Shown here in pieces: positions 2,308 to 39,445 of a stretch of DNA of 64,000 nt. Each line of letters begins with the position of its first letter. The stretch's first letter is position 1. The DNA lies in contig NC_011420.2 in assembly GCF_000016185.1 (NCBI RefSeq), positions 4,209,501 to 4,273,500 on the forward strand, written 5' to 3'. The position numbers and the translations under genes are program-made. Below the pieces are notes generated by a model. That model did not search any database and was not told the DNA's origin. It worked only from the letters and a program-made list of their open reading frames with translations. Source of the stretch: Rhodospirillum centenum SW. Lineage in GTDB: Bacteria; Pseudomonadota; Alphaproteobacteria; Azospirillales; Azospirillaceae.

Positions 2308-3750
2308 TCAGTACACGTCCCGCCCTGCCAGCTTGATCGCGGTGAGGACCAGGATCTTGATGTCCAGGGCCAGCGACCAGTTCTCGACATAGTACAGATC
2401 CTGCTCGATGCGGCGCTGCAGTGTCTCGACATCCGGGACCTCGCCGCGCAGGCCGGTCACCTGGGCCAGCCCCGTCATGCCCGGCTTGACCCGGTGGCGC
2501 GCCATGTAGCTCTCGACCTGCTCGCTGAATGCGGTGTCGTGCACCAGCGCGTGCGGCCGCGGACCGACCAGCGACATCTCTCCCCGCAGCACGTTGATGA
2601 GCTGCGGCAGTTCATCCAGGCTGCTGGCGCGCAGGAACCGTCCCATCCGGGTGACGCGCGGGTCGCGCCGGGTCACCTGTTGCAGCGGCCCGGTCCCGTC
2701 CTCCGTGACATGCAGGGTCCGGAACTTCAGCACGGTGAAGCTGGCCTTTCCGAAGCCGCCGCGCCGCTGCCGGAACAGGGCCGGGCCGGGGCTGTCCAGC
2801 CGGATCAGCGCCGCCAGCAGCAGCAGCAGGGGGGACAGCACCACCAGCAGAGCGCTCCCCACCACGATGTCGAAGAGGCGCTTGACCGTCCGGTCCATCT
2901 CCGCCAGGGGCGGTCGCGCGACCGTGATGACCGCCGGATCGTCGGTCAGGCCGAAGTCGCTGCGCCGCCGCAACACCCCGGGCGGCGGCAGGATCTTCAC
3001 CGCGACGGGCAGGAAGCGGGTCGCCCCGACATAGGCTTCAAGGGCCGCGTCGTCGTCCAGCGGCGGAGCCAGCAGGACCTGGTCGATCCGGTAGCGGGTG
3101 CAGAGAACCGCGATCTCGCGCACGGCATCGCGCAGATCGGGTGCCGCCGGGGCCGCTCCGTCCCCGCCATCGCCGCTGCCCCGGGGCGCAACGGCGACCG
3201 TGGCCAGGACGGCGTTCTCCCGGTCCGACAGGTAGGGCAGCAGGGCTTCAATCCGGTCGGTCGGCCCGACGAGCACGGAATGGCCGCAGAGCCGCCCGGT
3301 TTCGCGCAGCCAGGTCAGCACATAGCGGTAGAACAGCCGGACCGAACCGAGGGCGACGAAGCCGAGCAGCGCCCAGGAGCCCAGCCAGATGCGTGAATAC
3401 TGACCACTCGTCTTGGCGGCGAAGCTGAGCGCGATCACCAGCAGGACGGCCAGCCCCCAGCTGCTGGCGACGCGCCGCACGGCGGTCACCGGATCGCTCA
3501 TGCTCTCCGGCCGGTGGGTCCGGAACATGGGGCCGAGGAAAAGAAAGGCAAAGGCCCCGAGGGCAACCAGGACGGCATAATCGTCCGGTAGCTCGGACTG
3601 ACCGAAGCGAAGGCTGACCGCCGCAAGGGCAGCCGCAATGATGATCGTCAGGTCAGAACTCTGGAAAACCACCTGAACGGCCCGCTTGCTCCAGCGGGAG
3701 GGGCGCCGGACAGCAGAATGTGAGCTCTTTTCCGGGGCAGCCGTCGTCAC
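2308..3750 (-). CDS. Polyprenyl-phosphate sugar-1-phosphate transferase (WcaJ/ExoY type) initiating EPS synthesis
   Basis: 480 residues. Four hydrophobic segments lie in the first 150 residues, followed by a CoA-binding-like middle domain. The C-terminal bacterial sugar transferase domain starts at about residue 288 with KRLFDIVVGSALLVVLSPLL, the re-entrant membrane helix typical of the family. Family signatures visible are FRQRRGGFGK, VLKFRTL, DELPQLINVLRGEMSLVGPRP and the C-terminal LDIKILVLT. Such enzymes transfer a hexose-1-phosphate (often glucose or galactose) to undecaprenyl phosphate at the inner membrane, the first step of Wzx/Wzy-dependent EPS synthesis. The start is GTG at 3750; no upstream ATG in frame gives a better fit and the Shine-Dalgarno is weak. 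It is transcribed away from the rest of the cluster across an AT-rich intergenic region. Sugar specificity cannot be read from the sequence. Confidence 0.92.
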   Translation of the reverse strand: MTTAAPEKSSHSAVRRPSRWSKRAVQVVFQSSDLTIIIAAALAAVSLRFGQSELPDDYAVLVALGAFAFLFLGPMFRTHRPESMSDPVTAVRRVASSWGLAVLLVIALSFAAKTSGQYSRIWLGSWALLGFVALGSVRLFYRYVLTWLRETGRLCGHSVLVGPTDRIEALLPYLSDRENAVLATVAVAPRGSGDGGDGAAPAAPDLRDAVREIAVLCTRYRIDQVLLAPPLDDDAALEAYVGATRFLPVAVKILPPPGVLRRRSDFGLTDDPAVITVARPPLAEMDRTVKRLFDIVVGSALLVVLSPLLLLLAALIRLDSPGPALFRQRRGGFGKASFTVLKFRTLHVTEDGTGPLQQVTRRDPRVTRMGRFLRASSLDELPQLINVLRGEMSLVGPRPHALVHDTAFSEQVESYMARHRVKPGMTGLAQVTGLRGEVPDVETLQRRIEQDLYYVENWSLALDIKILVLTAIKLAGRDVY

Positions 3751-3817: not shown

Positions 3818-4134
3818 ATGAAGCAAGGAGCTTTCCTAAAAATTCATTAAATCCCATTTGTCCTATATGGAATTATCGCATGAGAATTCCGAATGAGTAT
3901 TGATCGTTCCATGCAAAAATCGAGCGCTGATTTGTGACGCTTAGAAATTGAAAGCATCATTCAGCGCATCAAGATTTTTGGTTAATGAAAATCAAGGCAA
4001 TGTAATGTCATCGGATATTCTAGCAGCAATATAATCTCAATATAATCATGGCTGGCTCTTTTGCTGAAGATTCCGGGTCGGGATTGATGGTCGTTTTCTT
4101 GGCGCAACTCTTCATTGGGGGTCCGGCCCGCCGA

Positions 4135-11773: not shown

Positions 11774-12622
11774 ATGACGACCGCCCGGCGCCCCGGACTG
11801 CTGGACCAGCTCGACCTTCTCCTGTTGCGCCTGGCAAAGCGCAGGCGAGAGCGTTTCAGCACCGAGCAGGCGTTCTACGACACCTTCTTCACGGAGGCGG
11901 ACGTGGAGAAGTACCGGAGCGATGTGCGGAATGTCTGGCGGTTCCGGACCGTGGCGGACATCCAGGCCCGGCTCTTCGACGACCGCCCGGCGACGGTCGT
12001 CGATGTGGGCTGCGGTCTGGCGGCCGTCGCCACGCATCTGCCCGCTGCCGCCACCTACCGGGGGGTCGAGTTCAGCCCGGCGACCCTGGCCCTGGCGGCG
12101 CGGCTGCATGCCGGGCGCCCAGGCATCCGGCTGGAGCAGGGCGGGTTTCCGGACCTGCCGGTGGGCGATGGCGAGGCCGATCTCGCCCTCTGCTTCGAGG
12201 TGGTGGAGCATGTCCGCGACGACGGGGCGGCGGTGCGGGAACTGGCCCGGATCGTCAGGCCGGGCGGCTATCTCCTGTTCAGTGTTCCCGGCACCCACTA
12301 CTGGCCGGAATACGAATCGCTGATCGGTCATTTCCGCCACTACACGGGAGATGCGGCGCGCGATCTGCTGCGGGACGCCGGCTTCGACATCGTCCGGGGC
12401 GTTCCGCAGCACCGCGGATTCTGGCGCCTCTACCATTACGGCTACGTGGCCGCGCTGGCGGGTGCCGCGCTGCTGACACGGGTGACGGGGCGGCCCGTGT
12501 CCCTGTTCTCCAGCGGTATCTACCGGGCGCTGTCGCGCCGTGTTCTGTCGACCCTGGCCGACGACGGCGTGCGGGACGACCCCGGTTCCACTTTCCTCCT
12601 CGCGCGCAGGCGCGGCCCGTGA
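11774..12622 (+). CDS. Class I SAM-dependent methyltransferase
   Basis: 282 residues. Motif I is VVDVGCGLAAVATHLP (near residue 75), the acidic residue after the second strand is in YRGVEFSPATL, and the family motif LCFEVVEHVRDD is followed by LARIVRPGGYLLFSVPG. These are Methyltransf_11/23 features. GAGG lies just before the ATG. The stop overlaps the GTG of the following glycosyltransferase (GTGA), so the two are co-translated and likely act on the same EPS intermediate. Substrate (sugar hydroxyl or carboxyl) cannot be read. Confidence 0.88.
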   Translation: MTTARRPGLLDQLDLLLLRLAKRRRERFSTEQAFYDTFFTEADVEKYRSDVRNVWRFRTVADIQARLFDDRPATVVDVGCGLAAVATHLPAAATYRGVEFSPATLALAARLHAGRPGIRLEQGGFPDLPVGDGEADLALCFEVVEHVRDDGAAVRELARIVRPGGYLLFSVPGTHYWPEYESLIGHFRHYTGDAARDLLRDAGFDIVRGVPQHRGFWRLYHYGYVAALAGAALLTRVTGRPVSLFSSGIYRALSRRVLSTLADDGVRDDPGSTFLLARRRGP

Positions 12623-13827
12623 GCGGCCCCCGGGTGCTGCGTGTGATCGGCGGGCTCGATCCCGATTTCGGTGGTCCGTCCGTTTCCGCCGTGACCTCTG
12701 CCATCGCCGCTGTCCGGGCGGGTGTTCCCACCGATCTTCTTTTCCCGGCCGGGGATCCGGATGCGGCCCTGGGCTTCCCGGCCGTCAGGGCGCTGGCGCA
12801 GGGCGGGGTCGGCGTCCGCTGTGTGCCGCTGCTGCGGCTGGCCCCGGCCCTGTCGCGCAGCCTGGGTATCAGCCCCGACCTCTCCCGGAATCTGCGCCGG
12901 CAGGTATCCGGGTACGACATTCTGCACGCCCACGGCGCCTGGACCCATGCCACCCTGGCGGCGATGGCGGCGGCGGGGGCTGCCGGCCTGCCCTTCGTCC
13001 TCAGCCCGCACGAAGGACTGACCCGCTACGACCTGTCCCATGCCCGTGCCGCCCCCCTCCGGATCGCCAAGCATCTGCTGAAGCGGCGGTTCGAGGCGCG
13101 TTGTGCTGCCATCGTCTACTCCTCCGGGCTGGAGCGGCGGGACAGTGCGTCCCCGTCGGCGCGGGCACGGGCGGCCGTGATCCATCATGCCGTGGTGGAC
13201 GACCGGGACGTGCCGTCGGCGGCCCGGCGGAAGGGCAGCATGCTGCGGCTGGGTTTTCTCGGGCGCCTGCATCCCAAGAAGAATCTGGACGTGCTCATCC
13301 GGGCTCTGGCCCTGCTGCCGCCTGAGGTGACCCTGACCGTCGCAGGCAGCGGCGAGGACGCTGCGGTGCGGGACCTACGGGGGCTGGCCGAGGCCGAAAA
13401 CGTGGCCGGCCGCATCGACTGGCGCGGATTCGTGACCGGCGGGGCGAAGGACCGCTTTCTGGCGGAGATCGACCTGCTCTGCATGCCGTCCACCTATGAA
13501 TGCTTCGGCATGGCAGCGGTGGAGGCGCTGGCCCGAGGCGTGCCGGTGCTGCTGTCGCCGGACTGCGGGGTGACGGCCCCCCTGGCCGACGCCGGCGCGG
13601 CACTGGTGGCCGACCCCCGGCCCGGTCCTGTGGCGGCGGCGGTCGGCACCCTGCTGGCGGATGCCGGCCGGTGGAAGGACCTGTCGGTGCGTGGCCAGGA
13701 GGCGGCACGCACCCGCTTCTCCTTCTCCGCCCACGGGGCGGCACTGCGCGCACTCTATTCGTCCCTGCCGGCAGCGGGAGCTTCCGCCGACGATGCGGGG
13801 TGTCCGTCGGCCCGCGATCATGGGTAG
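12619..13827 (+). CDS. Glycosyltransferase, GT4 family
   Basis: 402 residues from GTG 12619, overlapping the previous stop by 4 nt. The N-terminal half has the acceptor-binding fold with GGLDPDFGGPSVSAV and LHAHGAWTHATL. The C-terminal GT1-type domain shows LGFLGRLHPKKNLDVLIRAL and then CMPSTYECFGMAAVEALARG, which contains the E-x7-E motif of retaining GT-B enzymes. It probably adds one sugar to the lipid-linked EPS repeat unit at the cytoplasmic face of the membrane. It is in line with the methyltransferase before it and the glycosyltransferase after it. Confidence 0.9.
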   Translation: MSGPRVLRVIGGLDPDFGGPSVSAVTSAIAAVRAGVPTDLLFPAGDPDAALGFPAVRALAQGGVGVRCVPLLRLAPALSRSLGISPDLSRNLRRQVSGYDILHAHGAWTHATLAAMAAAGAAGLPFVLSPHEGLTRYDLSHARAAPLRIAKHLLKRRFEARCAAIVYSSGLERRDSASPSARARAAVIHHAVVDDRDVPSAARRKGSMLRLGFLGRLHPKKNLDVLIRALALLPPEVTLTVAGSGEDAAVRDLRGLAEAENVAGRIDWRGFVTGGAKDRFLAEIDLLCMPSTYECFGMAAVEALARGVPVLLSPDCGVTAPLADAGAALVADPRPGPVAAAVGTLLADAGRWKDLSVRGQEAARTRFSFSAHGAALRALYSSLPAAGASADDAGCPSARDHG

Positions 13828-15085: not shown

Positions 15086-15864
15086 CGGGCCTGCCCGGCC
15101 GTGCCGCGAAGCTGCTGCGCCTGCTCTCCCGCCCGGGATACCGGCGGGGGCTGGCAGTCGGCGTCGCCGCGGCGGTGGAGCATGAGGCGGCGATCCGTGC
15201 TCTGCCCGTCGGCATGCTGATCGACGTGGGCGCCAATGTGGGGCAGTTCTCCCTGCTGGTGCGGACGTTGCACCCCGCCGCCCGGATCGTGGCGTTCGAG
15301 CCGCTGGCGGAGCCTGCCGCTCGCTACGGGCGCCTTTTCGCCGACGCCCCGGGCGTAGACCTGCACCGGCATGCGCTCGGCTCTGCCGAGGGGAACGCGA
15401 CGATCCACCTGTCCCGGCGGCTGGACAGTTCGAGCCTGCTGCCCATTTCCCCCGTACAGGAGCAGACCTTCGCCGGCACGGGCGAGGTCGGCGTCCGGAC
15501 CGTTCCGGTCCGCCGCCTGGATGCCGTGCTCTCCCCGGCGTCGCTGACCGGCCAGGTCCTGCTGAAGCTGGACGTCCAGGGATTCGAGCTGGAGGTGATC
15601 CGCGGTTTCTCCGTGGGACTGGCGGCGGTGGAGCATGTCTATGCCGAGGTCTCCTTCCTGCCCCTCTACGAAGGGCAGCCGCTGGCGCCGGCCATCATCG
15701 CGGACCTGCACGCCCGGGGGTTCGACCTCGCCGGCGTCTACAATCTCTCGACCGACCGCGAGGGGCGGAGCGTGCAGGCCGACATGCTGTTCGCCAACCG
15801 GCGGCGCCGATCCGTCACCGCCGCTCCCAGTCCGGCGGGCATCGGCCCAGACGCTCCAGGATGA
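15070..15864 (+). CDS. FkbM-family methyltransferase
   Basis: 264 residues; a G-rich Shine-Dalgarno precedes the ATG, and the start lies inside the end of the preceding gene. FkbM motifs are clear: LIDVGANVGQFSLLVRTLHP, IVAFEPLAEPA, VDLHRHALGS and VLLKLDVQGFELEVIRGF, ending in DMLFANR. FkbM proteins methylate hydroxyls of sugars or polyketides and are common in EPS and O-antigen clusters. The last 50 bp are overlapped by the convergent GT2 gene, and the tail (AAPSPAGIGPDAPG) looks unstructured. Confidence 0.92.
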   Translation: MRSGVTGLPGRAAKLLRLLSRPGYRRGLAVGVAAAVEHEAAIRALPVGMLIDVGANVGQFSLLVRTLHPAARIVAFEPLAEPAARYGRLFADAPGVDLHRHALGSAEGNATIHLSRRLDSSSLLPISPVQEQTFAGTGEVGVRTVPVRRLDAVLSPASLTGQVLLKLDVQGFELEVIRGFSVGLAAVEHVYAEVSFLPLYEGQPLAPAIIADLHARGFDLAGVYNLSTDREGRSVQADMLFANRRRRSVTAAPSPAGIGPDAPG

Positions 15865-16762
15865 GATCGCGGTAGGCCTGCGCGACGGGGCTGGCGCCGT
15901 TCCTCAGCTCGGCCAGGAACAGGTCCACCTTGAACTCGTAGAAGGCCCGCAGCAGGCAGTATTTCAGCCCCGTGCGCCCCATCAGAAGGCCCAGCCGCGC
16001 CACGTAGACATAGGCGAAGACCCACAGGAAACGCAGCGGCAGGTGCCGGTACGACCAGTGTTTCAGCCTCCGGCGCCGCGCCATGGGGCCGGGCAGGGCA
16101 CAGGCCCCGTGGTCCGCAGCGGGCCTGTGCAGGTCGATGAAGGCCTCCACCGCCTCCATCTCCGCATAGGCGACATGGCGCTCCAGATAGCGGCGGATGC
16201 CCTTGCCGTCCTCATGCAGCAGCGGACTGGCGAGAAAGCCCACGGGACCGTCGGCCAGCATGTGCTCATGGACCAGCCGCCGTTCGTAGCGGGCGCGGCC
16301 CCGGCGGATCAGGCGGATCTGATAGTCCGGGTACATCCCGGCCCGGCGCAGGAAGACCCCGTCCACCACGTTCCTGCGCGGGATGGCGAAGGCCACCTCC
16401 GGCCGGTCACCGTGCAGGATGGCGGCGATCTCCGCCAGCAGGTCCGGCCCGATGCGCTCGTCGGCATCCAGCAGCAGAACCCAGTCGGTCCGGAACTCCA
16501 GATTGTCCAGGGCCCAGTTCTTGTGATCGGCGAAATTGTCGAAGACCCGCTGATGGAAGCGGGCGCCCCATGCCCGGGCGATCCGTTCCGTGCCGTCCGT
16601 GCTGTGGCTGTCGAAGACGACGACCTCGGCGAAGGCGCCCAGGGTGCCGAGAGTGGCGGGCAGGGCGCGTTCCTCGTTCCGGGTCGGGATCACCACCGTG
16701 ACCGGCAGCCTGCCCGTGGACGGGACAACCGGAAGCTCGGAGGCGGGGAGCCCGTCGTCCAT
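15815..16762 (-). CDS. Glycosyltransferase family 2, WaaE/KdtX-like
   Basis: 315 residues from ATG 16762, which has AGGA at good spacing; an in-frame ATG at 16801 is the alternative. The GT-A core shows VTVVIPTRNEERALPATL, VVVFDSHSTDGTERIA, DHKNWALDN and VLLLDADERI (metal-binding DxD). The later DYQIRLIRRGRARYERRLVHEH and the C-terminal basic/aromatic region are as in WaaE-like lipopolysaccharide core glucosyltransferases. Likely inverting and membrane-associated. The 3' end runs 50 bp into the FkbM gene on the other strand. Confidence 0.88.
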   Translation of the reverse strand: MDDGLPASELPVVPSTGRLPVTVVIPTRNEERALPATLGTLGAFAEVVVFDSHSTDGTERIARAWGARFHQRVFDNFADHKNWALDNLEFRTDWVLLLDADERIGPDLLAEIAAILHGDRPEVAFAIPRRNVVDGVFLRRAGMYPDYQIRLIRRGRARYERRLVHEHMLADGPVGFLASPLLHEDGKGIRRYLERHVAYAEMEAVEAFIDLHRPAADHGACALPGPMARRRRLKHWSYRHLPLRFLWVFAYVYVARLGLLMGRTGLKYCLLRAFYEFKVDLFLAELRNGASPVAQAYRDLILERLGRCPPDWERR

Positions 16763-16839
16763 CGGATGTCCTGTTCCCGGTCGCCGCCCGGCGGGCGTCA
16801 TGCTAAAGAAAGAACAAAGGTATCAGGAGGATGGAGGCC

Positions 16840-16935
16840 GTCTCAAGCAAGGACTGCCTCAAGCGAAGACTGCCTCGAATAAGAGCGGCCTCGAATAAGG
16901 ACGGCATCAGGCAAGGGGCTCCTGAAGCGGGGACT
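16840..16935. repeat. Six tandem copies of a 16-bp repeat
   Basis: Six back-to-back 16-nt units begin at 16840, 16856, 16872, 16888, 16904 and 16920. The first is gtctcaagcaaggact, the second gcctcaagcgaagact and the fourth gcctcgaataaggacg; the rest diverge further. The array lies in the divergent promoter region between the GT2 gene (start 16762, minus) and the methyltransferase gene (start 16975, plus). The unit length is not a multiple of three, which argues against a coding repeat. Confidence 0.85.
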
Positions 16936-16974
16936 GACCGGGGGCGATACGGGAAGGGACAGGCGGTGCCAGGT

Positions 16975-17652
16975 ATGGACGCGATCATCGATACCCCGGT
17001 CGAGGCCAAGAAGGCCCCCGTCGTGGTCGAACGGATTCTGACGACACTGGGCGGCATCCGGTCGGTGCTGGACATCGGCTGCGGGGACGGGATCGTGCGC
17101 CTGCATCTGCCGGCGGGGGTCCGCTATCTTGGCATCGACGCCGATGCCGGTCTGCGGGTCCCGGTCAGGGCCGCCAACGTCATCTACATGAAGCCCGGGG
17201 AGTCAGCCTTCGACCATGTGCCGGACGAACCGTTCGACGCCGTCCTGCTGCTGGATGTGCTGGAGCATACCCAGGATTTCACCGGCCTGTTCATCCAGGC
17301 CTGCGCAAAGTCCCCGCGCTATGTGGTCGTCACCCTGCCGAACGAGATGAACGGGGTCCGGCGGCTCGCCTTCCTGCGGGGCCGCTGCCCGCCGGAGCAG
17401 AGCATCGCCCAGGTCGGCAAACCCGACGGACACCGGCACATGTGGCTGGTTGACCCCGATGTTGCGACCGAGGTGCTGCTCCGGACGGCCGGGCCGCTGG
17501 GGTACCGGCTGCGTCAGCGGCACGACTGGCGGCTCTGGCCGCGCTCGCCGGTCAAGCGGCTGGCGTACCGGCTGCTGTGCGCGGTGGCTTCGGCCCGGGT
17601 CTGGAGTTTTCACACCGTGCTGGTCTTCGAGCGGGTGCCGTCGGCCGGATAG
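16975..17652 (+). CDS. Class I SAM-dependent methyltransferase
   Basis: 225 residues from ATG 16975 (AGGCGG upstream). Motif I is VLDIGCGDGIVRLHLP, then GIDADAGLRVPV and DAVLLLDVLEHTQDFTGLF, with a Methyltransf_23-like layout. The middle PRYVVVTLPNEMNGV and a short basic C-terminal region suggest membrane association. An open frame continues upstream through the 16-bp repeat array, but the methyltransferase fold begins only after 16975, so I exclude that extension. The end overlaps the convergent fusion gene by 43 bp. Confidence 0.85.
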   Translation: MDAIIDTPVEAKKAPVVVERILTTLGGIRSVLDIGCGDGIVRLHLPAGVRYLGIDADAGLRVPVRAANVIYMKPGESAFDHVPDEPFDAVLLLDVLEHTQDFTGLFIQACAKSPRYVVVTLPNEMNGVRRLAFLRGRCPPEQSIAQVGKPDGHRHMWLVDPDVATEVLLRTAGPLGYRLRQRHDWRLWPRSPVKRLAYRLLCAVASARVWSFHTVLVFERVPSAG

Positions 17653-19760
17653 ATCGCGTCGGCCAGCAGCAGCAGCGACTCCATCATCGTCGGGCCGATC
17701 TCCTCCAGCGCGAAGGGGGACGGCGCTGTGGCGGACGCGCCGGCGGTCCGGCGCAGATGGTCGGCCAGGATTCTGGCGTGGGGCAGGGCGCGCCGCGCCG
17801 TCCCGCCGCGGCGTGGTAACAGCCTCTGCCATGCCATGCCGGCCAGCCTCCCGGCCGCGGACCAGCCATCGTCCACGGGATTGCCGCGGCGTGGCAGGAT
17901 GCGGAACCCCTCGGGGAAGAAGTCCAGCACCACCGCGGCGCGCTCGAACTCGATCTCGATCCGGGTGCGGGTCGCGGTCCCCGTCGCATCCAGCTCGAAG
18001 CCCAGCGTGGCCCCCGATGCGGTGGCGCACAGCCCGACGGCGGAAACGACGGCCGACCCGTCCCGGCGCAGCACCCGGTCCACGGCGCGCACCTCCGTGA
18101 CCGGGCCGGTGACCTGCAGCGCGATGTCCAGGAAATGCAGCCCCAGTTCCAGCAGCAGTACCCGGTGGGTCACCTCCCGGTGGGCCCAGCGTGCCGGTTC
18201 GTTCAGGATGCGGCCGGTGTGGAACACCACCCGCGCGCGCACGGGCGCGCCGGGATCGTGCGCCGCCAGGAAGCGCCAGAGCCGCAGCGTGTTGGGACGC
18301 AGCCGGTAGTTCTGGACGATGCTGACCGCCCGGCCGGTGTCCGCCGCCGCGGCCCGCAGCATCGCCAGCCCCGGACGGTCCAGGCTGGCCGGTTTCTCCA
18401 GCACGACGTCGCAGCCCGCCCGGAGCAGCCGGGTCCCCAGGGTCGGGTGGGTGATGCCGGGCGTGGCGACGATCGCCGTGGCGCCCTCCAGCAGGGATGC
18501 CGGAACCGCGTCCAGGTCCGCGAACGCCGTCGCGCCCGGCAGCCTTGCGGCGACCGATCCGGCCAGGGACGGGATCGGGTCCACCACGCCGACGACCCTG
18601 ACCGGCAGGGCGGCCAGGGCGGGCAGATGCATCTCCTCCACGATCCGGCCGGCGCCGATCAGAATCACCGGCCGCCGGTCCCGTCCGGCCCCCGCCAGCG
18701 GGGTCGCGGCGACGGCCAGCAGCCGCTCCGCCCGGAGGCGCGCGGCAGCGTCGGCCCCGGTGGCGGGGGCGGGATCCCGGTCGAGGGTCAGGGCCTGCCG
18801 CAGGCAGGTCTCCGCCGTTCCCGTCGGCCTGACGCCCGTCTTCCGCCAGAAGGAGGCGCTGTCGAGCATCGCCGGGTCGAAGGCGTAGAGACGGCGCACC
18901 TTGTGCGGCAGGTCCTTCCGTCGGCCGCCGAGGCGGAACAGCCCCTCCAGAACCCAGGCAGCCGCCATGACCAGGAAGGCGGGAAGGGCGATGCGGAACC
19001 GGGGCCGTCCGGTCATGCGGGCATAGGAGGCCAGGAACCGCCGTCTGGTCGGCAGGGGCGGGGACAGGATGTCGATACTGTGGAACCGGCCGGGCTCCGC
19101 GGCCTGGGCGCAGAGGGCGGTGAGTCCGGCCGAGAGATCGTCCATGGCCAGAAGCGGCACGGCCGCGGCGCCCTGCCCGGTGATGACACCGATGCCCAGC
19201 GGCAGTTCCACGGCCGTGCCCGCCAGGGCGCCGGCCATGTCGGTCCCGAAGACCAGCCCCGGACGCACCAGCACGACCTCCATGCTGCCGTGCCGGCCGG
19301 CCTGGACGGCCTCCTGCACGGCGATGTCCGCCAGGGTCTTCGATTCGGCATAGACTCCGCGCCGCTCCGGGAAGGGTTCCAGCGCCCTGCCGTCCAGCCG
19401 GGAGGGATCGGCCGCCGGGATGCCCGGATAGACGCTCAGGGAGCTGACATGGACGAACCGCGTCACCCCCGCCGCGCGGCAGGCATCGAGCAGGGCGAGC
19501 GTTCCCTCCACGGACGTCCGGTTGATCTGCGCACGGTCGCCGGAACTGCCCGTCGCCAGATGGATGACGGCATCCGTGCCGGGGGGGATGTCGGCCGCCG
19601 TCACGGCCAGGATGTCCTTCACCACCGCCCCGGCAAGGACGGGCGCAAGCTCCGGCACCGTGCGGCGGCCGAGCGCATGGACCTGATGCCCGGCATCGGC
19701 GGCCTGGCGGACGAGGCTACGGCCGATGAAGCCGCTGGCACCGGAGATCAGAAGGCGCAT
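17610..19760 (-). CDS. Fusion of SDR-type NAD(P)-dependent epimerase/dehydratase and Gfo/Idh/MocA oxidoreductase
   Basis: 716 residues with two complete NAD(P) domains in one frame. Residues 1-340 are an extended SDR: GASGFIGRS (7-15), VIHLATGSSG, VHVSSLSVYP and Y147-x3-K151 (YAESK). Residues from about 360 on are Gfo/Idh/MocA type: VILIGAGRIVEEMHLPALAA, then CDVVLEKPASL with the catalytic-lysine EKP motif, and a long beta-sheet domain (VVFHTGRILNEPARWAH, LLLELGLHFLDIALQV). It probably carries out two steps on a nucleotide- or lipid-linked sugar, for example oxidation/reduction coupled to epimerisation; substrate unknown. It follows a GT2 gene by 4 bp on the same strand, so the sugar made may be the one that enzyme uses. 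No frameshift or stop separates the halves. Confidence 0.88.
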   Translation of the reverse strand: MRLLISGASGFIGRSLVRQAADAGHQVHALGRRTVPELAPVLAGAVVKDILAVTAADIPPGTDAVIHLATGSSGDRAQINRTSVEGTLALLDACRAAGVTRFVHVSSLSVYPGIPAADPSRLDGRALEPFPERRGVYAESKTLADIAVQEAVQAGRHGSMEVVLVRPGLVFGTDMAGALAGTAVELPLGIGVITGQGAAAVPLLAMDDLSAGLTALCAQAAEPGRFHSIDILSPPLPTRRRFLASYARMTGRPRFRIALPAFLVMAAAWVLEGLFRLGGRRKDLPHKVRRLYAFDPAMLDSASFWRKTGVRPTGTAETCLRQALTLDRDPAPATGADAAARLRAERLLAVAATPLAGAGRDRRPVILIGAGRIVEEMHLPALAALPVRVVGVVDPIPSLAGSVAARLPGATAFADLDAVPASLLEGATAIVATPGITHPTLGTRLLRAGCDVVLEKPASLDRPGLAMLRAAAADTGRAVSIVQNYRLRPNTLRLWRFLAAHDPGAPVRARVVFHTGRILNEPARWAHREVTHRVLLLELGLHFLDIALQVTGPVTEVRAVDRVLRRDGSAVVSAVGLCATASGATLGFELDATGTATRTRIEIEFERAAVVLDFFPEGFRILPRRGNPVDDGWSAAGRLAGMAWQRLLPRRGGTARRALPHARILADHLRRTAGASATAPSPFALEEIGPTMMESLLLLADAIYPADGTRSKTSTV

Positions 19761-19764
19761 GGTC

Positions 19765-20796
19765 TCAGAGTCCGCGATGGTCGAGGAGGGAAGGGGACCC
19801 GGCCGGGGGCGACACCCCGTCCGACAGCCGGCGGATCAGGTCGCGCCGCTGGCGCCCGAGGCCGAGCGGATCCGCCCGCCCGCCGAGCCGGACCAGATAG
19901 CGCCAGAGCACGGGGAACAGCCCCCAGCTCCGGCGCAGCAGGGCGATCCCGCCCAGCGCCGCCGCCCAGTCGCCATGGCGGGCGGCGTGGGCGATCCAGG
20001 ACACGTACTGCACTCCCCTGTGAGAGAGCAGCAGCGAGCGCGCCGGACCGGGCCGTGCGGAACGGTCGATCAGCGTCTCCAGGACCGGCCTGTCCTCGCG
20101 GATCATCCGCAGGTCGCGGCCCAGGACAAAGGTCGCCCGGCCGGCATGGGCGCGGAGATCGACCAGGCTCTCGTCCAGGAACAGGAAGGGACGGCGGGCC
20201 ACCAGATCCAGCCACATCATGAAGTCGGCCGTCATGCTGAGCGTGTCGCGGAAGGGCAGGTCGCGCGCCAGTGCCCCGTCCACCGCGACGGTCGAGAGAT
20301 TGCCGGGCAGGCAGCCGAAATGGATGAACAGTTCGTTCGCCGCCTCGCCGTCGTAGAACCCGCTCGGCAGCCCGTCATAGTGGCGCGGCCGGTCGATGGC
20401 CCTGCCACCGTCGTCGATGGTGCAGCCCCGGAAGAAGCAGAAGGAGAACCGGCCCAGCGCAGGGCCGGCCACGGCCTCCAGCCGGGCCAGCAGGCCGGGC
20501 CGCATGATGTCGTCCTGGCAGAAGATCTGCACCAGATCGCCGTCGGTGTGGCGGATCGCGTTGTTCAGGTTCGTGAAGATGCCGGGACGGTCCGGGTTGC
20601 GCACCACCCGCACCCACGGATGGCGCGCGGCGAAGCCGGTCACGGTCTCCCATGTGGCGTCCTGGGACGGATCGTAGCTGATCACCAGCTCATCCGGCGG
20701 GCGGGTCTGGGCGGCGATGCCGTCCAGGCAGGCCCCGAGATGCCGGGCGCCCTCGTAGACCGGCATGGCAACCGAGATGCGGAGGGGATGCGGCAT
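19765..20796 (-). CDS. Glycosyltransferase family 2
   Basis: 343 residues, starting MPHPLRISVAMPVYEGARHL. GT-A motifs are ISVAMPVYEGARHLGACLDG, DELVISYDPSQDATWE, PGIFTNLNNAIRHTDGDLVQ and FCQDDIM, where the DD provides the metal-binding acidic pair. The C-terminal half (TADFMMWLDLVARRPFLFLD) is typical of family 2 enzymes acting on EPS repeat units. It forms a two-gene unit with the downstream SDR-oxidoreductase fusion (4-bp gap). Confidence 0.9.
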   Translation of the reverse strand: MPHPLRISVAMPVYEGARHLGACLDGIAAQTRPPDELVISYDPSQDATWETVTGFAARHPWVRVVRNPDRPGIFTNLNNAIRHTDGDLVQIFCQDDIMRPGLLARLEAVAGPALGRFSFCFFRGCTIDDGGRAIDRPRHYDGLPSGFYDGEAANELFIHFGCLPGNLSTVAVDGALARDLPFRDTLSMTADFMMWLDLVARRPFLFLDESLVDLRAHAGRATFVLGRDLRMIREDRPVLETLIDRSARPGPARSLLLSHRGVQYVSWIAHAARHGDWAAALGGIALLRRSWGLFPVLWRYLVRLGGRADPLGLGRQRRDLIRRLSDGVSPPAGSPSLLDHRGL

Positions 20797-21140
20797 CTGG
20801 GCGTTCCGGCGTCCGGCAGAGCGTCAGCGGCACGCCGATTGACGCGCCGGAGCAGTCTTCATACTCTTTATCTACTTCGGCAGGATGTTTTCCGCAACGT
20901 GGATATTCTGCCTGGACCGCCATCCGAAGACTGGGGCGACCCCCGGGGACCGTTTTTGCTGAACGATGCGGAGGGGAAGGAGGGTTTTCCCTGCGCCCCG
21001 CCCGGCGCAACTCTGCGCGTGCTGCCGGCCGGGCGGGTGGATATTCTATCCCCGCCCGGAACCGTCCCGTGCACGGCAGAGCCCACCCCGCCTGCCCCCA
21101 CACCGCTCCGTCCCAGTTCCCGCCCTGCCCGGACACGTCC
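20797..21140. promoter_or_regulatory. 344-bp divergent promoter region
   Basis: Lies between the GT2 gene (minus) and the GT17-like gene (plus). TTGACG (20839-20844), 17 nt, then TACTCT (20862-20867) is a fair sigma70-like promoter toward the plus-strand gene. An exact 11-bp direct repeat GTGGATATTCT occurs at 20899-20909 and 21037-21047, 138 bp apart. A short hairpin AGGG-TTTT-CCCT lies near 20985. No coding sequence is supported. Confidence 0.45.
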
Positions 21141-22100
21141 ATGCCCCGCCTCATCGACTGCTTCATCTTCTTCAATGAACTGGACGTGCTGGAGATCCGC
21201 CTGCGCGAACTGGCCGGGGTGGTCGATCGCTTCGTGCTGGTCGAGGCCACGCACAGCTTCCGGGGCCACCCCAAGGATCTGGTCTTCGCCGCCAACCGGG
21301 CGCGGTTCGCTCCCTACCTCGACAGGATCACCCATGTCGTCGTTGACGACATGCCCTGCGATCCCGACCCCTGGGTGAACGAGAGATTCCAGCGCAACGC
21401 CATCGCCCGGGGTCTTCACGGCGCAGCCCCCGACGACATCGTCGTCGTTTCCGACGTGGACGAAATCCCGCGCGCCTCCGTTATGGCGGAGCTGCGCGGC
21501 ACTCCCTTCAAGGCCGCCGGGCTGCGCATGCGCCTCTACTATGTCAGGCTCAATTATCAGAATCTGGTCGGCAGCGCGTCGCACGCGGTCTGGTCGGTGG
21601 CCCAGCCCTTCGCCCGCTTCCGGTCGGCCCAGGCGGCCCGGGACCTCCGTCCCGCCCTGGACGCGGCCGACGGCGCGCTGCCGCCGGGCCATCTCGTCCT
21701 GCCCGACGCGGGCTGGCATTTCTCCTACCTGGGGGACAAGGAGCGCATTCTGAACAAGGTGCGCAACTTCTCCCATGCGGAGATCGATACGGCCGCGCTC
21801 GAAGCCCTGGACATCGACGGGCTCATGCGGTCCGGGACGGATCTTCTCGGGCGCGGCGGGATGGTCTGGGGGGTCGTTCCCGGCGGTCATGGCCTGCCCG
21901 ACGCCGTGCTCGCCGATCCCGACCGCTATGCCGCCCTGCTGGCGCCCTGCGATCCCGCAGACCTCGACCGCACCCTCATGCGTGTGGTCGCCGGGGGGGA
22001 GGCGCTGCGGCGGGCGGAACAGGACGCGCCTGTCCTCACCATGATGCGGCGCCGGTTCAGGCGGTGGCGGAGTCTGGCCGGGCTGCCCGCTCTCGGCTGA
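21141..22100 (+). CDS. Glycosyltransferase family 17 protein
   Basis: 319 residues from ATG 21141, starting MPRLIDCFIFFNELDVLEIR. The family 17 pattern is clear: CFIFFNELDVLEIRLREL, FVLVEATHSFRGHPKDL, DPWVNERFQRNAIARGL, DIVVVSDVDEIPRASVM and GWHFSYLGDKERILNKV. The prototype GT17 enzyme is the eukaryotic beta-1,4-mannosyl-glycoprotein N-acetylglucosaminyltransferase (MGAT3). Bacterial members occur in polysaccharide clusters and their acceptors are mostly unknown. The DVDE motif would bind the metal and nucleotide-sugar. Confidence 0.88.
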   Translation: MPRLIDCFIFFNELDVLEIRLRELAGVVDRFVLVEATHSFRGHPKDLVFAANRARFAPYLDRITHVVVDDMPCDPDPWVNERFQRNAIARGLHGAAPDDIVVVSDVDEIPRASVMAELRGTPFKAAGLRMRLYYVRLNYQNLVGSASHAVWSVAQPFARFRSAQAARDLRPALDAADGALPPGHLVLPDAGWHFSYLGDKERILNKVRNFSHAEIDTAALEALDIDGLMRSGTDLLGRGGMVWGVVPGGHGLPDAVLADPDRYAALLAPCDPADLDRTLMRVVAGGEALRRAEQDAPVLTMMRRRFRRWRSLAGLPALG

Positions 22101-24072: not shown

Positions 24073-25599
24073 ATGACGACAGCCGTGCCGGGTCCCGTGA
24101 CCGACGCCCGGATCGCCAAGACATCGCTGCTGCTGCGGATCGCACTGACCGTTCTGGGCCTTCTGGCCCTGTTCGTCGGCGCCGGCCTGCAATCGGCGGC
24201 CATCATGGTCCTGGGTTTTCTCTGTCTGACGGCGCCCGCCCTCTTCGCCTTCGCGGAAATCGTCTGGAGTCCGCGGGAGAACTGGTCGGCCTGCCGTCTT
24301 CTCGCGGCTGCGCTCCAGTTCTTCCATTTCTTCGGCGGGGCGCTCAGCCTGTTCCTGGCTCCGGGCGAGGATACGCTGCGCGCCGTCTACTATCCGCGTT
24401 TCGACGGGGAGCAGGCCATCGTCGGCGCCCTGTATGTCGTGCTGTTCTGCGCGGCGCTGTCATTCCTTGGCCGGTACGAGCGTGCGTCCTGGGCGCCGAC
24501 CTTCGACCTGCTGGGCCGCGGGGGCGGGTCCGGGTCGCGGATCGGCGGCTTCTTCGTCGTTCTCATCGTGGCCGAGGTCTATGTCCTGTCCATCGGCGAC
24601 TGGGGTTTCCGCGGGCTGACCTCCAGCATCGAGGGGGAGGCTCCCATCCTCGCCAACGTGATCGGCGCACTGCTGCTGCCGGTCGTCGCCTGCTGCGGCT
24701 GGATTCTGGGGCAGGGTCTCCGCCGCCATTCCCTTGTCTTTATCGTGACCACACTGGTGACGCTGGCGGTCCAGATCTTCCTCTGCGCCCTCTGGGGACG
24801 GTTGAGCTTCGCAAGTGCCCTCATCATCGGCACGGTCTTCCATCTCTGGGCCCGGTATCTCGCGTGCGGTCGCCGGGTCCGTCCGGGCTGGCTGGTCGCC
24901 GCCGGCCTCGTTCTGCTGGGCACCATCACGACGGCCACCCAGCTTCAGTACATGCTCCGCATCGGCATGAACCGGGTCGCCGATGTCGGCGTCGAGGGCG
25001 GCATGCTCGACGGTCTGAGCGTGGCCTACAGCGTCGTCCAGGCGGAGCGCGAACTGGCGGCCGCCTCCAGTTTCGAGAATCTGAGCTACCGCGCCTTCAT
25101 GTTCGGCTATGCGGCGGATGTCGTTCACCAGTATCCGGCGTCGGACATGCTGGGGGGGCTGCATCTTGCGATGTCGGCGATCGTCACCGTTCCGCGCTTC
25201 GTCATTCCGGGCAAGGCCGAACTGGTGCGGACCGTCCCCTTCACCGAGGACATCGTGAACGAGGTGATCGGCCGGCCGCCGTCGGACGAGGCGTTCAGTC
25301 CTGTGATCGGCTCCTTCGCGGATTTCTGGTTCGCCGGGCTGATCGTGTACCCTGTCGTGATATTTCTGATCATCCGCGTCTGCGCCCATGTCATGGGCTG
25401 GTTCCAGGACTCCTATGTCGCGGTGATGGGGCTGGGGCTGATGTTCCAGTTCTTCCTCGCGGCAGAGGGCACCATGACGCTGTACTTCTCAGCCCTGCGC
25501 TACGCTCTGGTCTTCCTGCTCCTCGATCTGGTCTTCCGCCTGTTCCGGTCCTTCAGCGCGCGGCCCGCCCTGTCGGCCGGCCGGCCCGCGCTGCGCTGA
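24073..25599 (+). CDS. Integral membrane protein, candidate Wzy-like EPS polymerase
   Basis: 508 residues, with about eleven or twelve hydrophobic helices spread over the whole length (for example LLLRIALTVLGLLALFVGAG, ALLLPVVACCGWILG, GLIVYPVVIFLIIRVC). A large soluble loop at about 310-410 contains RAFMFGYAADVVHQYPASD and VIPGKAELVRTV. Size and layout fit oligosaccharide repeat-unit polymerases, which have little sequence conservation. It lies directly before the flippase candidate, and every other Wzx/Wzy-pathway component is present nearby. I cannot exclude a different membrane enzyme. The tandem 16-bp repeat lies just upstream. Confidence 0.7.
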   Translation: MTTAVPGPVTDARIAKTSLLLRIALTVLGLLALFVGAGLQSAAIMVLGFLCLTAPALFAFAEIVWSPRENWSACRLLAAALQFFHFFGGALSLFLAPGEDTLRAVYYPRFDGEQAIVGALYVVLFCAALSFLGRYERASWAPTFDLLGRGGGSGSRIGGFFVVLIVAEVYVLSIGDWGFRGLTSSIEGEAPILANVIGALLLPVVACCGWILGQGLRRHSLVFIVTTLVTLAVQIFLCALWGRLSFASALIIGTVFHLWARYLACGRRVRPGWLVAAGLVLLGTITTATQLQYMLRIGMNRVADVGVEGGMLDGLSVAYSVVQAERELAAASSFENLSYRAFMFGYAADVVHQYPASDMLGGLHLAMSAIVTVPRFVIPGKAELVRTVPFTEDIVNEVIGRPPSDEAFSPVIGSFADFWFAGLIVYPVVIFLIIRVCAHVMGWFQDSYVAVMGLGLMFQFFLAAEGTMTLYFSALRYALVFLLLDLVFRLFRSFSARPALSAGRPALR

Positions 25600-25639
25600 T
25601 CCGGGCGGACCCGCATTGGACGGCGGTGACGATCGGTCG

Positions 25640-27298
25640 GTGAAAGGGTCCCTGACCCGGGGATTCGGCGCCCGCTTCGTTCTGTTCGGGCTCACCTTCG
25701 GGCAGCAGTTCCTGCTGGTTCCGGCCTATCTGCATGCCTGGGGGGCGGGCGTCTACCAGGACTGGCTGGTGATCGGGGCCGTCGCGGCCATGGCCGGCCT
25801 GCTCGACCTCGGCATGCAGTTCTATTTCGGCAACAGGCTGACCATGCAGTGGGCTGCCCGTGAGGAGGCGGCCTACGCGAAGACCCTGAAGATCGCGCTG
25901 GGGTGCTACGCGGTGGTCACCGCCTCGGCCATAGCCGGCATCGGTGCCCTGCTGCTGCTGACCGATCCCGTGGCGCTGCTGAAGCTCGGGACGATGGCGC
26001 CGGACGACGCCTTCCTGGCCCTGGCCGGCTGCACCCTGGTGAACATCCTGGCCGTCGGCATGGGTATTCTCGGGGTCCTCTACAGGACCCGCGGGCGCTA
26101 CGAACGGTCGGTCTACATGGGTATCCTGCATTCGCTCTACACGGTGCTGGCGACCCTTGTCTGTCTTCTCCTGGGGGCGGGGCCGTCGCAGATCGCCCTC
26201 GTCACGCTGGGCGGGGTCGTCCTCTTCCTCGTCGTCCTTCCCTGGGATCTCCGCCGTCAGTTCGGCTCCCTGCCCTGGGGGCTCGCCCTGCCGGACCGGG
26301 CGGAGCTGCGCGACATCGCGGGCCGCGGCGGGCTCTATGCCGTCGGACCGCTCTACCAGATGTCGGTGACGCAGCTCCCGATCCTGGTGCTCAACCATCT
26401 CGCCCCGGCGGGCAACGCGGTGATCCTGTTCAGCATCGCCCGCACGCTGGCCGGCATGGTCCGGCAGCTTCCGGCGCAGCTCGCTCCCGGGATCGGCGTG
26501 GAGATGTCGATCAAGTACGCGCGGGAGGATCTCGCCGGCGTCCGCAGCATGTTTCTCAGGACCAGCCGCTTCCTGGGCGGCGTCGCCGGCTTCGCCGCCG
26601 GTGTCTCCCTCGCCGCGGCGGAGCCGTTCGTCCGGATCTGGACCGGGGGCGCCGTGGCCCTGGATCTGCCTGTCTTCGCCGTCCTGCTGGCCGGCATCCT
26701 TGCCGTCAGCCCCGCGATTCCCAGCCAGACGTTCCTGAGCTTCACCAACCGTCCCCAGGCGCTGACCCTCAGCTATCTGCTGCATGCCGGCCTGTCGTTG
26801 CTGCTCATGCTCCTGCTGATCCCCGGGCAGGGGGCCGTCGGTGCCGCCGTCGCGCTGGCGGTGGGGGAGACCGTGGCCATCGGTCTGTTCCTGCCGGCTC
26901 TCTGCCATCCGCGGCTGGGGCTGCCGCTGTTTGCCTTTCTGGCGGAAAGTGGGCTCCGGATCGCCGGCGCGGCCCTGGTCTCCTGGGGCCTGGCGGGGGC
27001 GGCCGGGGCGCTCGTGGCGCCTGTGTCGCCCCTGACGCTCGGCCTGTTCGGCGCGCTCTGGCTGGCTGGGGCCGTGCCGGCGGCCTACCGGATGGTGCTT
27101 TCGGCGGATCAGCGCGACTGGCTGCGGCAGGGCGCGCGCCACCGCCTCGCCCGCTTCGCCGGCGGCGGGATCGGGCGCGCCGGGCGATCACAGCCCCAGC
27201 CGGCGGGCGACCGAGCGGAGAAGGCTGCCGCCGAGGTGCGGTCGCCGGATGGCTGCCGGGATGAAGCTGCTGCCCAGCCGCCGTCCCAGGTGGGCTGA
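25640..27298 (+). CDS. Wzx-like oligosaccharide flippase
   Basis: 552 residues from GTG 25640; a TTG at 25616 would add eight. The protein has about twelve to fourteen transmembrane helices with the MATE/MOP-superfamily arrangement: FVLFGLTFGQQFLLVPAYL near the N-terminus, LLDLGMQFYFGNRL, LYQMSVTQLPILVLNHLAP and the second bundle from about residue 300. Such proteins flip the undecaprenyl-linked repeat unit to the periplasm. The final 37 residues or so (SQPQPAGDRAEKAAAEV onward) are polar and lie entirely in DNA that encodes, on the other strand, the end of the neighbouring methyltransferase gene. They were probably gained when an original stop was lost. Confidence 0.82.
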   Translation: MKGSLTRGFGARFVLFGLTFGQQFLLVPAYLHAWGAGVYQDWLVIGAVAAMAGLLDLGMQFYFGNRLTMQWAAREEAAYAKTLKIALGCYAVVTASAIAGIGALLLLTDPVALLKLGTMAPDDAFLALAGCTLVNILAVGMGILGVLYRTRGRYERSVYMGILHSLYTVLATLVCLLLGAGPSQIALVTLGGVVLFLVVLPWDLRRQFGSLPWGLALPDRAELRDIAGRGGLYAVGPLYQMSVTQLPILVLNHLAPAGNAVILFSIARTLAGMVRQLPAQLAPGIGVEMSIKYAREDLAGVRSMFLRTSRFLGGVAGFAAGVSLAAAEPFVRIWTGGAVALDLPVFAVLLAGILAVSPAIPSQTFLSFTNRPQALTLSYLLHAGLSLLLMLLLIPGQGAVGAAVALAVGETVAIGLFLPALCHPRLGLPLFAFLAESGLRIAGAALVSWGLAGAAGALVAPVSPLTLGLFGALWLAGAVPAAYRMVLSADQRDWLRQGARHRLARFAGGGIGRAGRSQPQPAGDRAEKAAAEVRSPDGCRDEAAAQPPSQVG

Positions 27299-36227: not shown

Positions 36228-37190
36228 TCATCCCGGCTCGGCCTCGGCCAGCAGGGTGGCGAAGTAGCGGATCGTCCGCTCCAGCCCCTCCCGCAGCGGT
36301 ACCCGCGGTTCCCAGCCGAGAAGGGTGCGCGCCCGCGTGATGTCGGGGCAGCGCTGCATCGGGTCGTCCACCGGCAGCGGCCGGTAGACCAGTTCCGAGC
36401 GGGAGCCTGTCAGCCCGATCACCTGGTCCGCCAGCTCCCGGATCGTGAATTCGCCGGGATTGCCGAGATTGACCGGCCCCGTGGTGCCCTCCGGCGCCTG
36501 CATCAGCCGGACGATGGCGTCGATCAGGTCATCGACATAGCAGAAGGAGCGCGTCTGGCGGCCATCGCCCTGGATCGTGATCGGTGCGTTCCGCAGGGCC
36601 TGGACGATGAAGTTCGACACCACCCGCCCGTCGTTCGGATGCATCCGGGGACCGTAGGTGTTGAAGATGCGCGCCACGCGGATATCGACTCCGTGCTGGC
36701 GGTGGTAGTCGAAGAACAGCGTCTCCGCGCAGCGTTTGCCCTCGTCGTAGCAGGCGCGCGGGCCGATCGGGTTCACATTGCCCCGGTAATCCTCCGACTG
36801 CGGATGCTGGTCGGGGTCGCCATAGACCTCCGACGTGGACGCCTGGAAGATCCGTGCGCGCAACCGCTTGGCGAGGCCCAGCATGTTGATGGCGCCATGC
36901 ACGGAGGTCTTCGTCGTCTGCACCGGATCGTTCTGGTAATGCACCGGGGACGCCGGACAGGCGAGATTGTAGATCTCATCCACCTCGACGTAGAGCGGAA
37001 AGGTAACGTCGTGGCGGAGCAGTTCGAAGCGCGGGTGGCCCAGCAGATGCGCGATGTTGTCCTTGGTGCCCGTGAAGAAGTTATCGACACAGATCACATC
37101 GTTGCCGTCCGCGATCAGGCGGTCGCAGAGATGCGAGCCGAGGAAGCCCGCTCCCCCCGTCACCAGAACCCGTGCCCGCGCCCGTTTCAT
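36228..37190 (-). CDS. uxs: UDP-glucuronate decarboxylase (UDP-xylose synthase)
   Basis: 320 residues from ATG 37190 (GAGGACA upstream); an in-frame alternative start at 37235 adds 15 residues. The extended SDR shows [64 protein letters not shown] and [15 protein letters not shown] (Y-x3-K), then [20 protein letters not shown]. These are the full UXS signatures. The enzyme converts UDP-glucuronate to UDP-xylose, predicting xylose in the polymer. It lies at the head of the minus-strand UXS-asnB-glycosyltransferase unit. Confidence 0.94.
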
Positions 37191-37311
37191 CGACCATGTC
37201 CTCGTTGCCAGCAGTTCCTGGGGGGAAATTACCACTTCGGAGCGGGGGGCGTGAACCCTCGATCAGATGCCGTCAGGCCCGCCGCTTGTCTTTGCCTATG
37301 AAGTCATCGGT

Positions 37312-37340
37312 TTGACTGTCCCTTCCGGATAGCGCATATT
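37312..37340 (+). promoter_or_regulatory. Sigma70-like promoter for gmd-fcl-galE unit
   Basis: TTGACT (37312-37317), a 17-nt spacer and CATATT (37335-37340). It predicts a transcription start about 40 bp before the ATG at 37386, which has GGAG at 8 nt. It lies between the divergent UXS and gmd genes and is the best-looking promoter of the EPS cluster. Confidence 0.6.
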
Positions 37341-37385
37341 TTACACATTGTGGGTCGGTGGCGATTCACAGATGGAGTGTTCGTG

Positions 37386-38470
<1,085 letters not shown>

Positions 38471-38474
<4 letters not shown>

Positions 38475-39445
38475 CGGTGCCGGCCATGCAGGGCGTGGAT
38501 TTCCGTCTCCAGGGCCGCCGGGTCTGGGTGGCCGGCCACCGCGGCATGGTCGGCTCCGCCGTGGTGCGCCGTCTGGCGGCGGAGGACTGCGAGACCCTCA
38601 CCGTCGGGCGCGACCGGCTGGACCTGCGCGACGGGGCGGCGGTGGAGCGCTGGCTGGCGGAGACCCGGCCCGAGGTGGTGGTGCTGGCGGCCGCCCGGGT
38701 CGGCGGCATCCTCGCCAATGCCCGCCAGCCGGCCGATTTCCTCTACGACAACCTCGCCATCGCCGGCAGCGTGATCCATGCCGCCTTCCGCCAGGGGGTG
38801 GCGAAGCTGCTGTTCCTGGGCTCCTCCTGCATCTACCCCAAGCTGGCGCCGCAGCCGATCCCGGAGACGGCCCTGCTGACCGGGCCGCTGGAGCCGACCA
38901 ACGAGGGATACGCCATCGCCAAGATCGCCGGCATCAGGCTGTGCGAGGCCTACCGGCGGCAGCACGGCTGCGACTTCATCTCGGCGATGCCGACCAACCT
39001 CTACGGCCCGAACGACAATTTCCACCCGGAGAACAGCCACGTCCTGCCGGCCCTGCTGCGCAAGGTGCATGAGGCGAAGGCCGCGGGGCGGGAGACGGTG
39101 GAACTCTGGGGCAGCGGCCGGCCGCGGCGGGAGTTCCTGCATGTGGACGATCTGGCAGATGCCTGCGTGCATCTGCTGCGGCACTGGTCGGATGAGCGGA
39201 CGGTCAATGTCGGCACCGGCACGGACATCGCCATCGCCGAACTGGCGGCGCTGATTGCCGAGGTGGTCGGCTGGCACGGGCGCTTCGTCTACGACCCGAC
39301 GAAGCCGGACGGCACGCCGCGAAAGCTGCTGGACGTGTCCCGCCTGACCGCACTGGGCTGGACCGCCCGCATCCCCCTGCGCGACGGCATCGCCGCCACC
39401 AGCCGCTGGTATCTGGAGAATGCCGGGGAGTTGCGCCATGGTTAG
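38471..39445 (+). CDS. fcl: GDP-L-fucose synthase
   Basis: 324 residues, overlapping gmd by 4 nt (ATGA). Motifs: [73 protein letters not shown] (Y-x3-K) and [20 protein letters not shown]. The enzyme is a 3,5-epimerase/4-reductase (WcaG) making GDP-L-fucose from the Gmd product. With gmd it predicts fucose in the polymer and supplies the WcaI-type transferase at 9019. Confidence 0.97.

Follow-up and report, generated by a model that had tools for sequence, protein, structure and literature searches.

A single 716-residue frame in the window (the whole stretch of 64,000 nucleotides analysed here, from the cyst-forming purple bacterium Rhodospirillum centenum SW) joins an extended SDR to a Gfo/Idh/MocA oxidoreductase. 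Two questions follow from this arrangement: whether the chain is a genuine two-enzyme fusion, and what reaction its halves may carry out together. Literature searches on an SDR/Gfo fusion of this kind found nothing. We considered the gene itself, its genomic setting and its relatives in other genomes.

The fusion gene and its domains

The gene and its parts are as follows.
17610..19760, minus strand: SDR-Gfo/Idh/MocA fusion gene, 716 aa (single open frame; both families by Pfam; 50% identity over 1-713 to an orthologue in genome G166)
18786..19760, minus strand: extended SDR half, residues 1 to ~325 (PF01370 at 4-219; motif alignment; SDR tree)
18675..18785, minus strand: linker, residues ~326-362 (alignment with G166)
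17613..18674, minus strand: Gfo/Idh/MocA half, residues ~363-716 (PF01408 and PF22725; motif alignment)

The frame starts with an ATG at 19760 and its stop ends at 17610 on the minus strand; a sequence-only reading had given these coordinates and this length exactly, with no strand. The GC contents of its three codon positions (0.75/0.56/0.90) reveal a strong coding bias in a window of about 70% GC. The same reading had claimed two complete domains with both active-site signatures, and this was borne out. Epimerase (PF01370) matched residues 4-219 with 84.6 bits (cut-off 20.9), which places the first half among the extended SDRs, and its motifs GASGFIG (7-13), S107 and YAESK (137-141, with Y137 and K141) were intact in the motif alignment. 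GFO_IDH_MocA (PF01408) matched residues 365-480 with 45.2 bits (cut-off 24) and GFO_IDH_MocA_C3 (PF22725) residues 496-609 with 33.2 bits (cut-off 27). A Rossmann domain with EKP and a C-terminal alpha/beta domain, both above their cut-offs, thus identify the second half as a Gfo/Idh/MocA protein, in which the motif alignment located GAGRIV (369-374), EKP (455-457) and ELGLH (538-542, with E538 and H542).

Neither half reached any named NCBIfam model, and the SDR half lay far under each cut-off. Its top match was HpnA, the hopanoid-associated sugar epimerase (TIGR03466), yet with 68.9 bits, where the cut-off is 367.65, it does not belong to that model, and no hopanoid genes were seen among the cluster genes examined. 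The earlier label "SDR epimerase" thus names a superfamily only. A single-sequence AlphaFold2 model of the fusion was set aside (mean pLDDT 43).

The exopolysaccharide cluster and encystment

The fusion gene sits inside an exopolysaccharide cluster of R. centenum, as had been claimed for it, with exopolysaccharide genes on all sides. The features that matter here are the following.
2308..3750, minus strand: RC1_4002 wcaJ, initiating sugar transferase (Pfam Bac_transf; exact CgrA site in front)
3931..3946, plus strand: published CgrA-binding sequence TTTGTGACGCTTAGAA, exact (PMC4681086 table 1)
11774..13827, plus strand: methyltransferase (11774-12622) and the following GT4 gene (54% and 44% identity to genes of the G166 cluster)
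15815..16801, minus strand: GT2 glycosyltransferase common to the G166 cluster (52%; Pfam and comparison)
16831..17652, plus strand: convergent methyltransferase (Pfam; coordinates)
19765..20796, minus strand: GT2 glycosyltransferase directly upstream of the fusion (Pfam; sequence)
36228-37235, minus strand: UDP-glucuronate decarboxylase-like gene (Pfam; 72-76% identity to genes annotated UDP-glucuronate decarboxylase)
37350-38474, plus strand: GDP-mannose 4,6-dehydratase (Pfam)
38471-39445, plus strand: GDP-fucose synthase-like gene (Pfam; fucose-synthase role taken from gene pairing)

From wcaJ on, the cluster comprises a beta-barrel porin, a Poly_export protein, a Wzz/AAA protein, several GT4 and GT2 enzymes and methyltransferases, and further on a GT17 enzyme (21069-22100), two tandem glycosyltransferases, an asparagine synthase, the UDP-glucuronate decarboxylase-like gene and the GDP-mannose dehydratase/GDP-fucose synthase-like pair. 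The fusion ATG follows the stop of the upstream GT2 gene by only 4 bases, so the two are probably co-translated. At its other end, the fusion gene overlaps the 3' end of the convergent methyltransferase by 43 bases. The nucleotide-sugar genes at 36228..39445 are candidate suppliers of the fusion's substrate. The tandem glycosyltransferase genes (28205-30318) are 52% identical to each other and represent a local duplication, and three long coding frames with no Pfam match (24073-25599, 25616-27298 and 30398-31612) are flippase or polymerase candidates. Adjoining wcaJ, a gene at 36-2075, whose start may fall beyond the window edge, encodes a cadherin domain and RTX calcium-binding repeats and is possibly a secreted matrix protein.

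The sequence TTTGTGACGCTTAGAA is present once in the window, 181 bases before the start of wcaJ. It has been assigned to the minus-strand gene RC1_4002 wcaJ, the binding peak lying 174 bp ahead of the first codon; wcaJ expression is lowered in a cgrA mutant, and wcaJ is listed among the genes regulated in cyst development (PMC4681086). The first glycosyltransferase of the cluster is thus the encystment-regulated wcaJ, and the cluster opens with a member of the encystment regulon, because wcaJ both carries the exact CgrA site and falls in the cgrA mutant. RC1_3992, the gene of a hypo-cyst mutant (PMC4340629), was considered as the GDP-fucose synthase of the window and dropped: the CgrA site shows RC1_4002 to be the gene at 2308-3750, which puts RC1_3992 most probably outside the window, on its upstream side.

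The orthologue, reversed fusions and separate pairs

Only one of the 385 genomes of the class, G166 from another alphaproteobacterial family and the sole representative of its order among the genomes searched, contained an SDR-Gfo orthologue. It is 50% identical over residues 1-713 (625 bits) and forms a single uninterrupted 725-aa frame with the same domain order; the linker is partly conserved (RDPAP), with a short insertion in G166. The orthologue was absent from the 81 other genomes of the window's family, where no match scored above 59.6 bits (self score 1535). When 369 genomes of the class of G718, a set without a positive control, were searched with a profile of the SDR-Gfo pair, none matched, and a scan of genome contigs with the fusion protein as single query returned weak SDR matches only. 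Since a full-length protein of the same order and 50% identity exists in another family, the fusion is no chance frame. It is, moreover, one of a group of polymer genes that are conserved together, because the G166 cluster shares the methyltransferase, GT4 and GT2 genes with that of the window (44-54% identity).

All other fusions that we found were reversed. There were 25 different Gfo-SDR fusions against two of SDR-Gfo order (the window and G166), a ratio that is biased by the use of a Gfo-SDR profile in one search. The search for the same domain order elsewhere, which the sequence-only reading had proposed, thus yielded one orthologue in a polymer cluster and otherwise the opposite order. 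The next-best matches in the class after G166 (G137, G394, G325 and G404) all had Gfo first and then SDR. Plasmids of Shinella, Paracoccus and Ruegeria carry such fusions, as do Azospirillum, Skermanella and the planctomycete Aquisphaera and, within the family of the window, the genomes G002 and G010. Like the window protein, they hold the same two families in one chain with intact motifs, in an exopolysaccharide or glycosyltransferase context, and those of Shinella (WP_306035513.1), Paracoccus (WP_289896262.1) and Ruegeria (WP_260026539.1) are of similar length (687-702 aa). They differ in domain order and share only ~25-33% identity per domain, so their substrates may differ from that of the window; because of the reversed order an end-to-end alignment is meaningless, and the domains were compared individually. 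Gfo/SDR fusions in exopolysaccharide clusters are already in public annotation, where they appear as "NAD-dependent epimerase/dehydratase family protein", though the family has no name, and the literature searched gave no function for such a fusion.

In addition, separate adjacent Gfo and SDR genes were found at nine loci, all of them in the order Gfo then SDR; in Roseobacter denitrificans (WP_011655469.1 / WP_011655470.1) the two genes overlap by 4 bases. This pair has the same families and genomic setting as the window fusion. The separate pairs differ from it in being two proteins with the Gfo gene first, and most of them have a Gfo Tyr at the expected catalytic His.

These pairs bear on whether the window frame is an artefact, with two neighbours run together through the loss of a stop codon or an error in sequencing. 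Distant relatives do carry both families as separate adjacent genes, but a lost stop in a Gfo-then-SDR pair would yield Gfo-SDR, the opposite of the window order, and the orthologue is one uninterrupted frame with a partly conserved linker. An artefact of this type is therefore extremely improbable, and we rejected it. The sequence-only reading had named separate neighbouring genes in close relatives as the finding that would speak against a fusion; adjacent pairs occurred only in distant relatives and in reverse order, and the sole close relative is fused in the same way. The window frame is a genuine two-enzyme fusion with both of its active-site signatures intact.

In the SDR tree, which is unrooted and includes some rows taken from the neighbourhoods of fusions, generic SDRs were split with support 100/96 from the SDRs of the window, G166, most Gfo-SDR fusions and the separate pairs. 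The SDRs of the Azospirillum and Skermanella fusions grouped among the generic SDRs with an adjacent pair (L096; 97/92), apart from the other fusions, which implies, on this topology, that the two families were fused at least twice independently. These fusions (L083, L085 and L086) form a separate lineage in which the Gfo motif reads DxGxH, and they apparently arose by a fusion of their own. The Gfo half of the window fell outside the Gfo-SDR clade (support 98); trees joining them were not rejected (AU p 0.10, or 0.48 with one more row). The SDR-Gfo order of the window may thus represent a domain swap or an independent fusion. Judged by these sequence comparisons, the SDR/Gfo pairing is recurrent and the domain order of the window is a rare variant.

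Directly upstream of the Gfo-SDR fusions of the Shinella-type subgroup and Aquisphaera (L015-L018, L067, L084 and L090-L092) lies a homologous GT2 gene (46-84% identity), and GT2 plus Gfo-SDR fusion is probably a two-gene module spreading by transfer. The upstream GT2 of the window gave no match to the GT2 genes of those loci, and the idea that it is the same conserved gene was rejected.

A coupled reaction and its alternatives

On the basis of these comparisons, we consider it moderately probable that the fusion is a coupled two-step sugar-modifying enzyme of the exopolysaccharide cluster. A coupled two-step reaction can reasonably be proposed because the same two families are paired repeatedly in exopolysaccharide clusters. 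Substrate channelling and an unusual sugar in the polymer, which the sequence-only reading had suggested, are plausible proposals. The fusion would be an order-swapped member of a recurrent partnership between one Gfo/Idh/MocA dehydrogenase and one extended SDR. Among the closest solved relatives in profile searches were sugar and cyclitol dehydrogenases for the Gfo half and reductases and nucleotide-sugar enzymes for the SDR half, and a two-step stereochemical change is favoured for this reason.

In Rossmann folds, an Arg after beta-2 favours NADP(H) and an Asp favours NAD(H). The motif alignment placed R32 at this position in the SDR half and D394 in the Gfo half, and the same Arg and Asp were found across the fusions. 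As far as single residues can indicate, NADP(H) is favoured for the SDR half and NAD(H) for the Gfo half, and because the two residues favour different cofactors, an oxidation driven by NAD+ followed by a reduction driven by NADPH is possible. The specific scheme, in which the Gfo half oxidises and the SDR half reduces, is put forward tentatively. The Gfo half, with NAD+ as the favoured cofactor, would turn a ring hydroxyl of an activated sugar into a ketone, and the SDR half, with NADPH favoured, would reduce this ketone, or an isomeric form, from the opposite face. Overall, this would amount to a two-step epimerisation or a similar stereochemical change and would supply one of the cluster's glycosyltransferases with a non-standard sugar. 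We infer that both halves act on the same substrate, as well as the direction, the cofactors and the stereochemical outcome. The proposed logic is like that of the decaprenylphosphoryl ribose epimerase DprE1/DprE2 (PMC11127046), where one enzyme oxidises and an SDR reduces for a net epimerisation; the oxidase there is an FAD enzyme and not a Gfo protein, and the likeness is in working only, with no homology.

Within one pathway or polymer, the two halves might instead work on separate sugars or on steps that do not follow each other, the fusion merely fixing their stoichiometry without channelling. Several nucleotide-sugar genes in the cluster would agree with this, as would the variable domain order, which speaks against a required fixed geometry, and the Shinella and roseobacter-type clusters that combine a Gfo-SDR fusion with a second, separate Gfo/SDR pair, so that one polymer could call for two or more such reactions. 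The repeated pairing of both families, separate and fused in both orders, fits linked steps more easily, and we regard simple co-production as rather unlikely. The second set lies near the fusion at L015, L018, L067, L090, L091 and L092; the separate Gfo proteins of these two-set clusters have EHAGY, with a Tyr, where the fusions have ELGxH, with the catalytic His.

There is still less probability, and in our view little, that one half is catalytic while the other, for instance a Gfo half no longer fully active, serves mainly as a scaffold or as a regulatory domain that binds NAD(P). In the Gfo half, ExxxH stands in place of the DxxxH of many standalone relatives, and no named model comes close (its best NCBIfam match reached 28 bits). 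Nevertheless, the window, the orthologue and all fusions examined retain both the EKP lysine and the histidine, and the Glu is common to most Gfo-SDR fusions, which suggests a subfamily trait rather than decay.

As for the substrate, it is doubtful, though less so than the loss of one activity, that it is something other than a nucleotide sugar; the candidates would be a polyprenyl-linked sugar, a glycan that is already assembled, or a precursor outside the sugars, for instance a cyclitol. Inositol dehydrogenases and glycoside-oxidising DgpA enzymes are among the nearest solved Gfo relatives, and the orthologue adjoins UbiA, FAD-oxidase and SDR genes resembling a lipid-linked pentofuranose pathway. 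Against this, the extended SDR superfamily is rich in nucleotide-sugar enzymes, and no lipid-linked pentose genes were seen in the window, the best FAD-oxidase match of the genome reaching 28 bits; a general link of the fusion with DprE1/DprE2/UbiA pentofuranose genes was rejected on these last two grounds. The UbiA prenyltransferase, FAD oxidase and SDR genes of G166 (L059 5015-9259) and Ruegeria conchae (L017 1-3700) are 41-51% alike and resemble that pathway with its DprE1/DprE2 enzymes; alongside them lies a GtrA gene in Ruegeria and a gene for a multi-pass membrane protein in G166.

Returning to the coupled reaction, the two families have been fused repeatedly and in both orders, which is good evidence from comparison for linked steps, and two generic annotations ("epimerase" and "oxidoreductase") become a specific, testable hypothesis on a missing sugar pathway. 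In its widest form, which we hold with low confidence, the SDR/Gfo partnership would be an unnamed, widespread two-step sugar-inverting module of bacterial exopolysaccharides, fused several times independently and in both orders and combining NAD+ oxidation with NADPH reduction in one chain; it would make a sugar that no pathway yet accounts for, which in R. centenum may be destined for the cyst coat. Exopolysaccharide clusters of rhizobia, roseobacters, azospirilla and one planctomycete contain Gfo-SDR fusions and pairs, and solving one of them would aid the annotation of many. In R. centenum, as the first gene of the cluster is under direct control of the encystment regulator CgrA, the fusion enzyme may help to shape the desiccation-resistant cyst coat.
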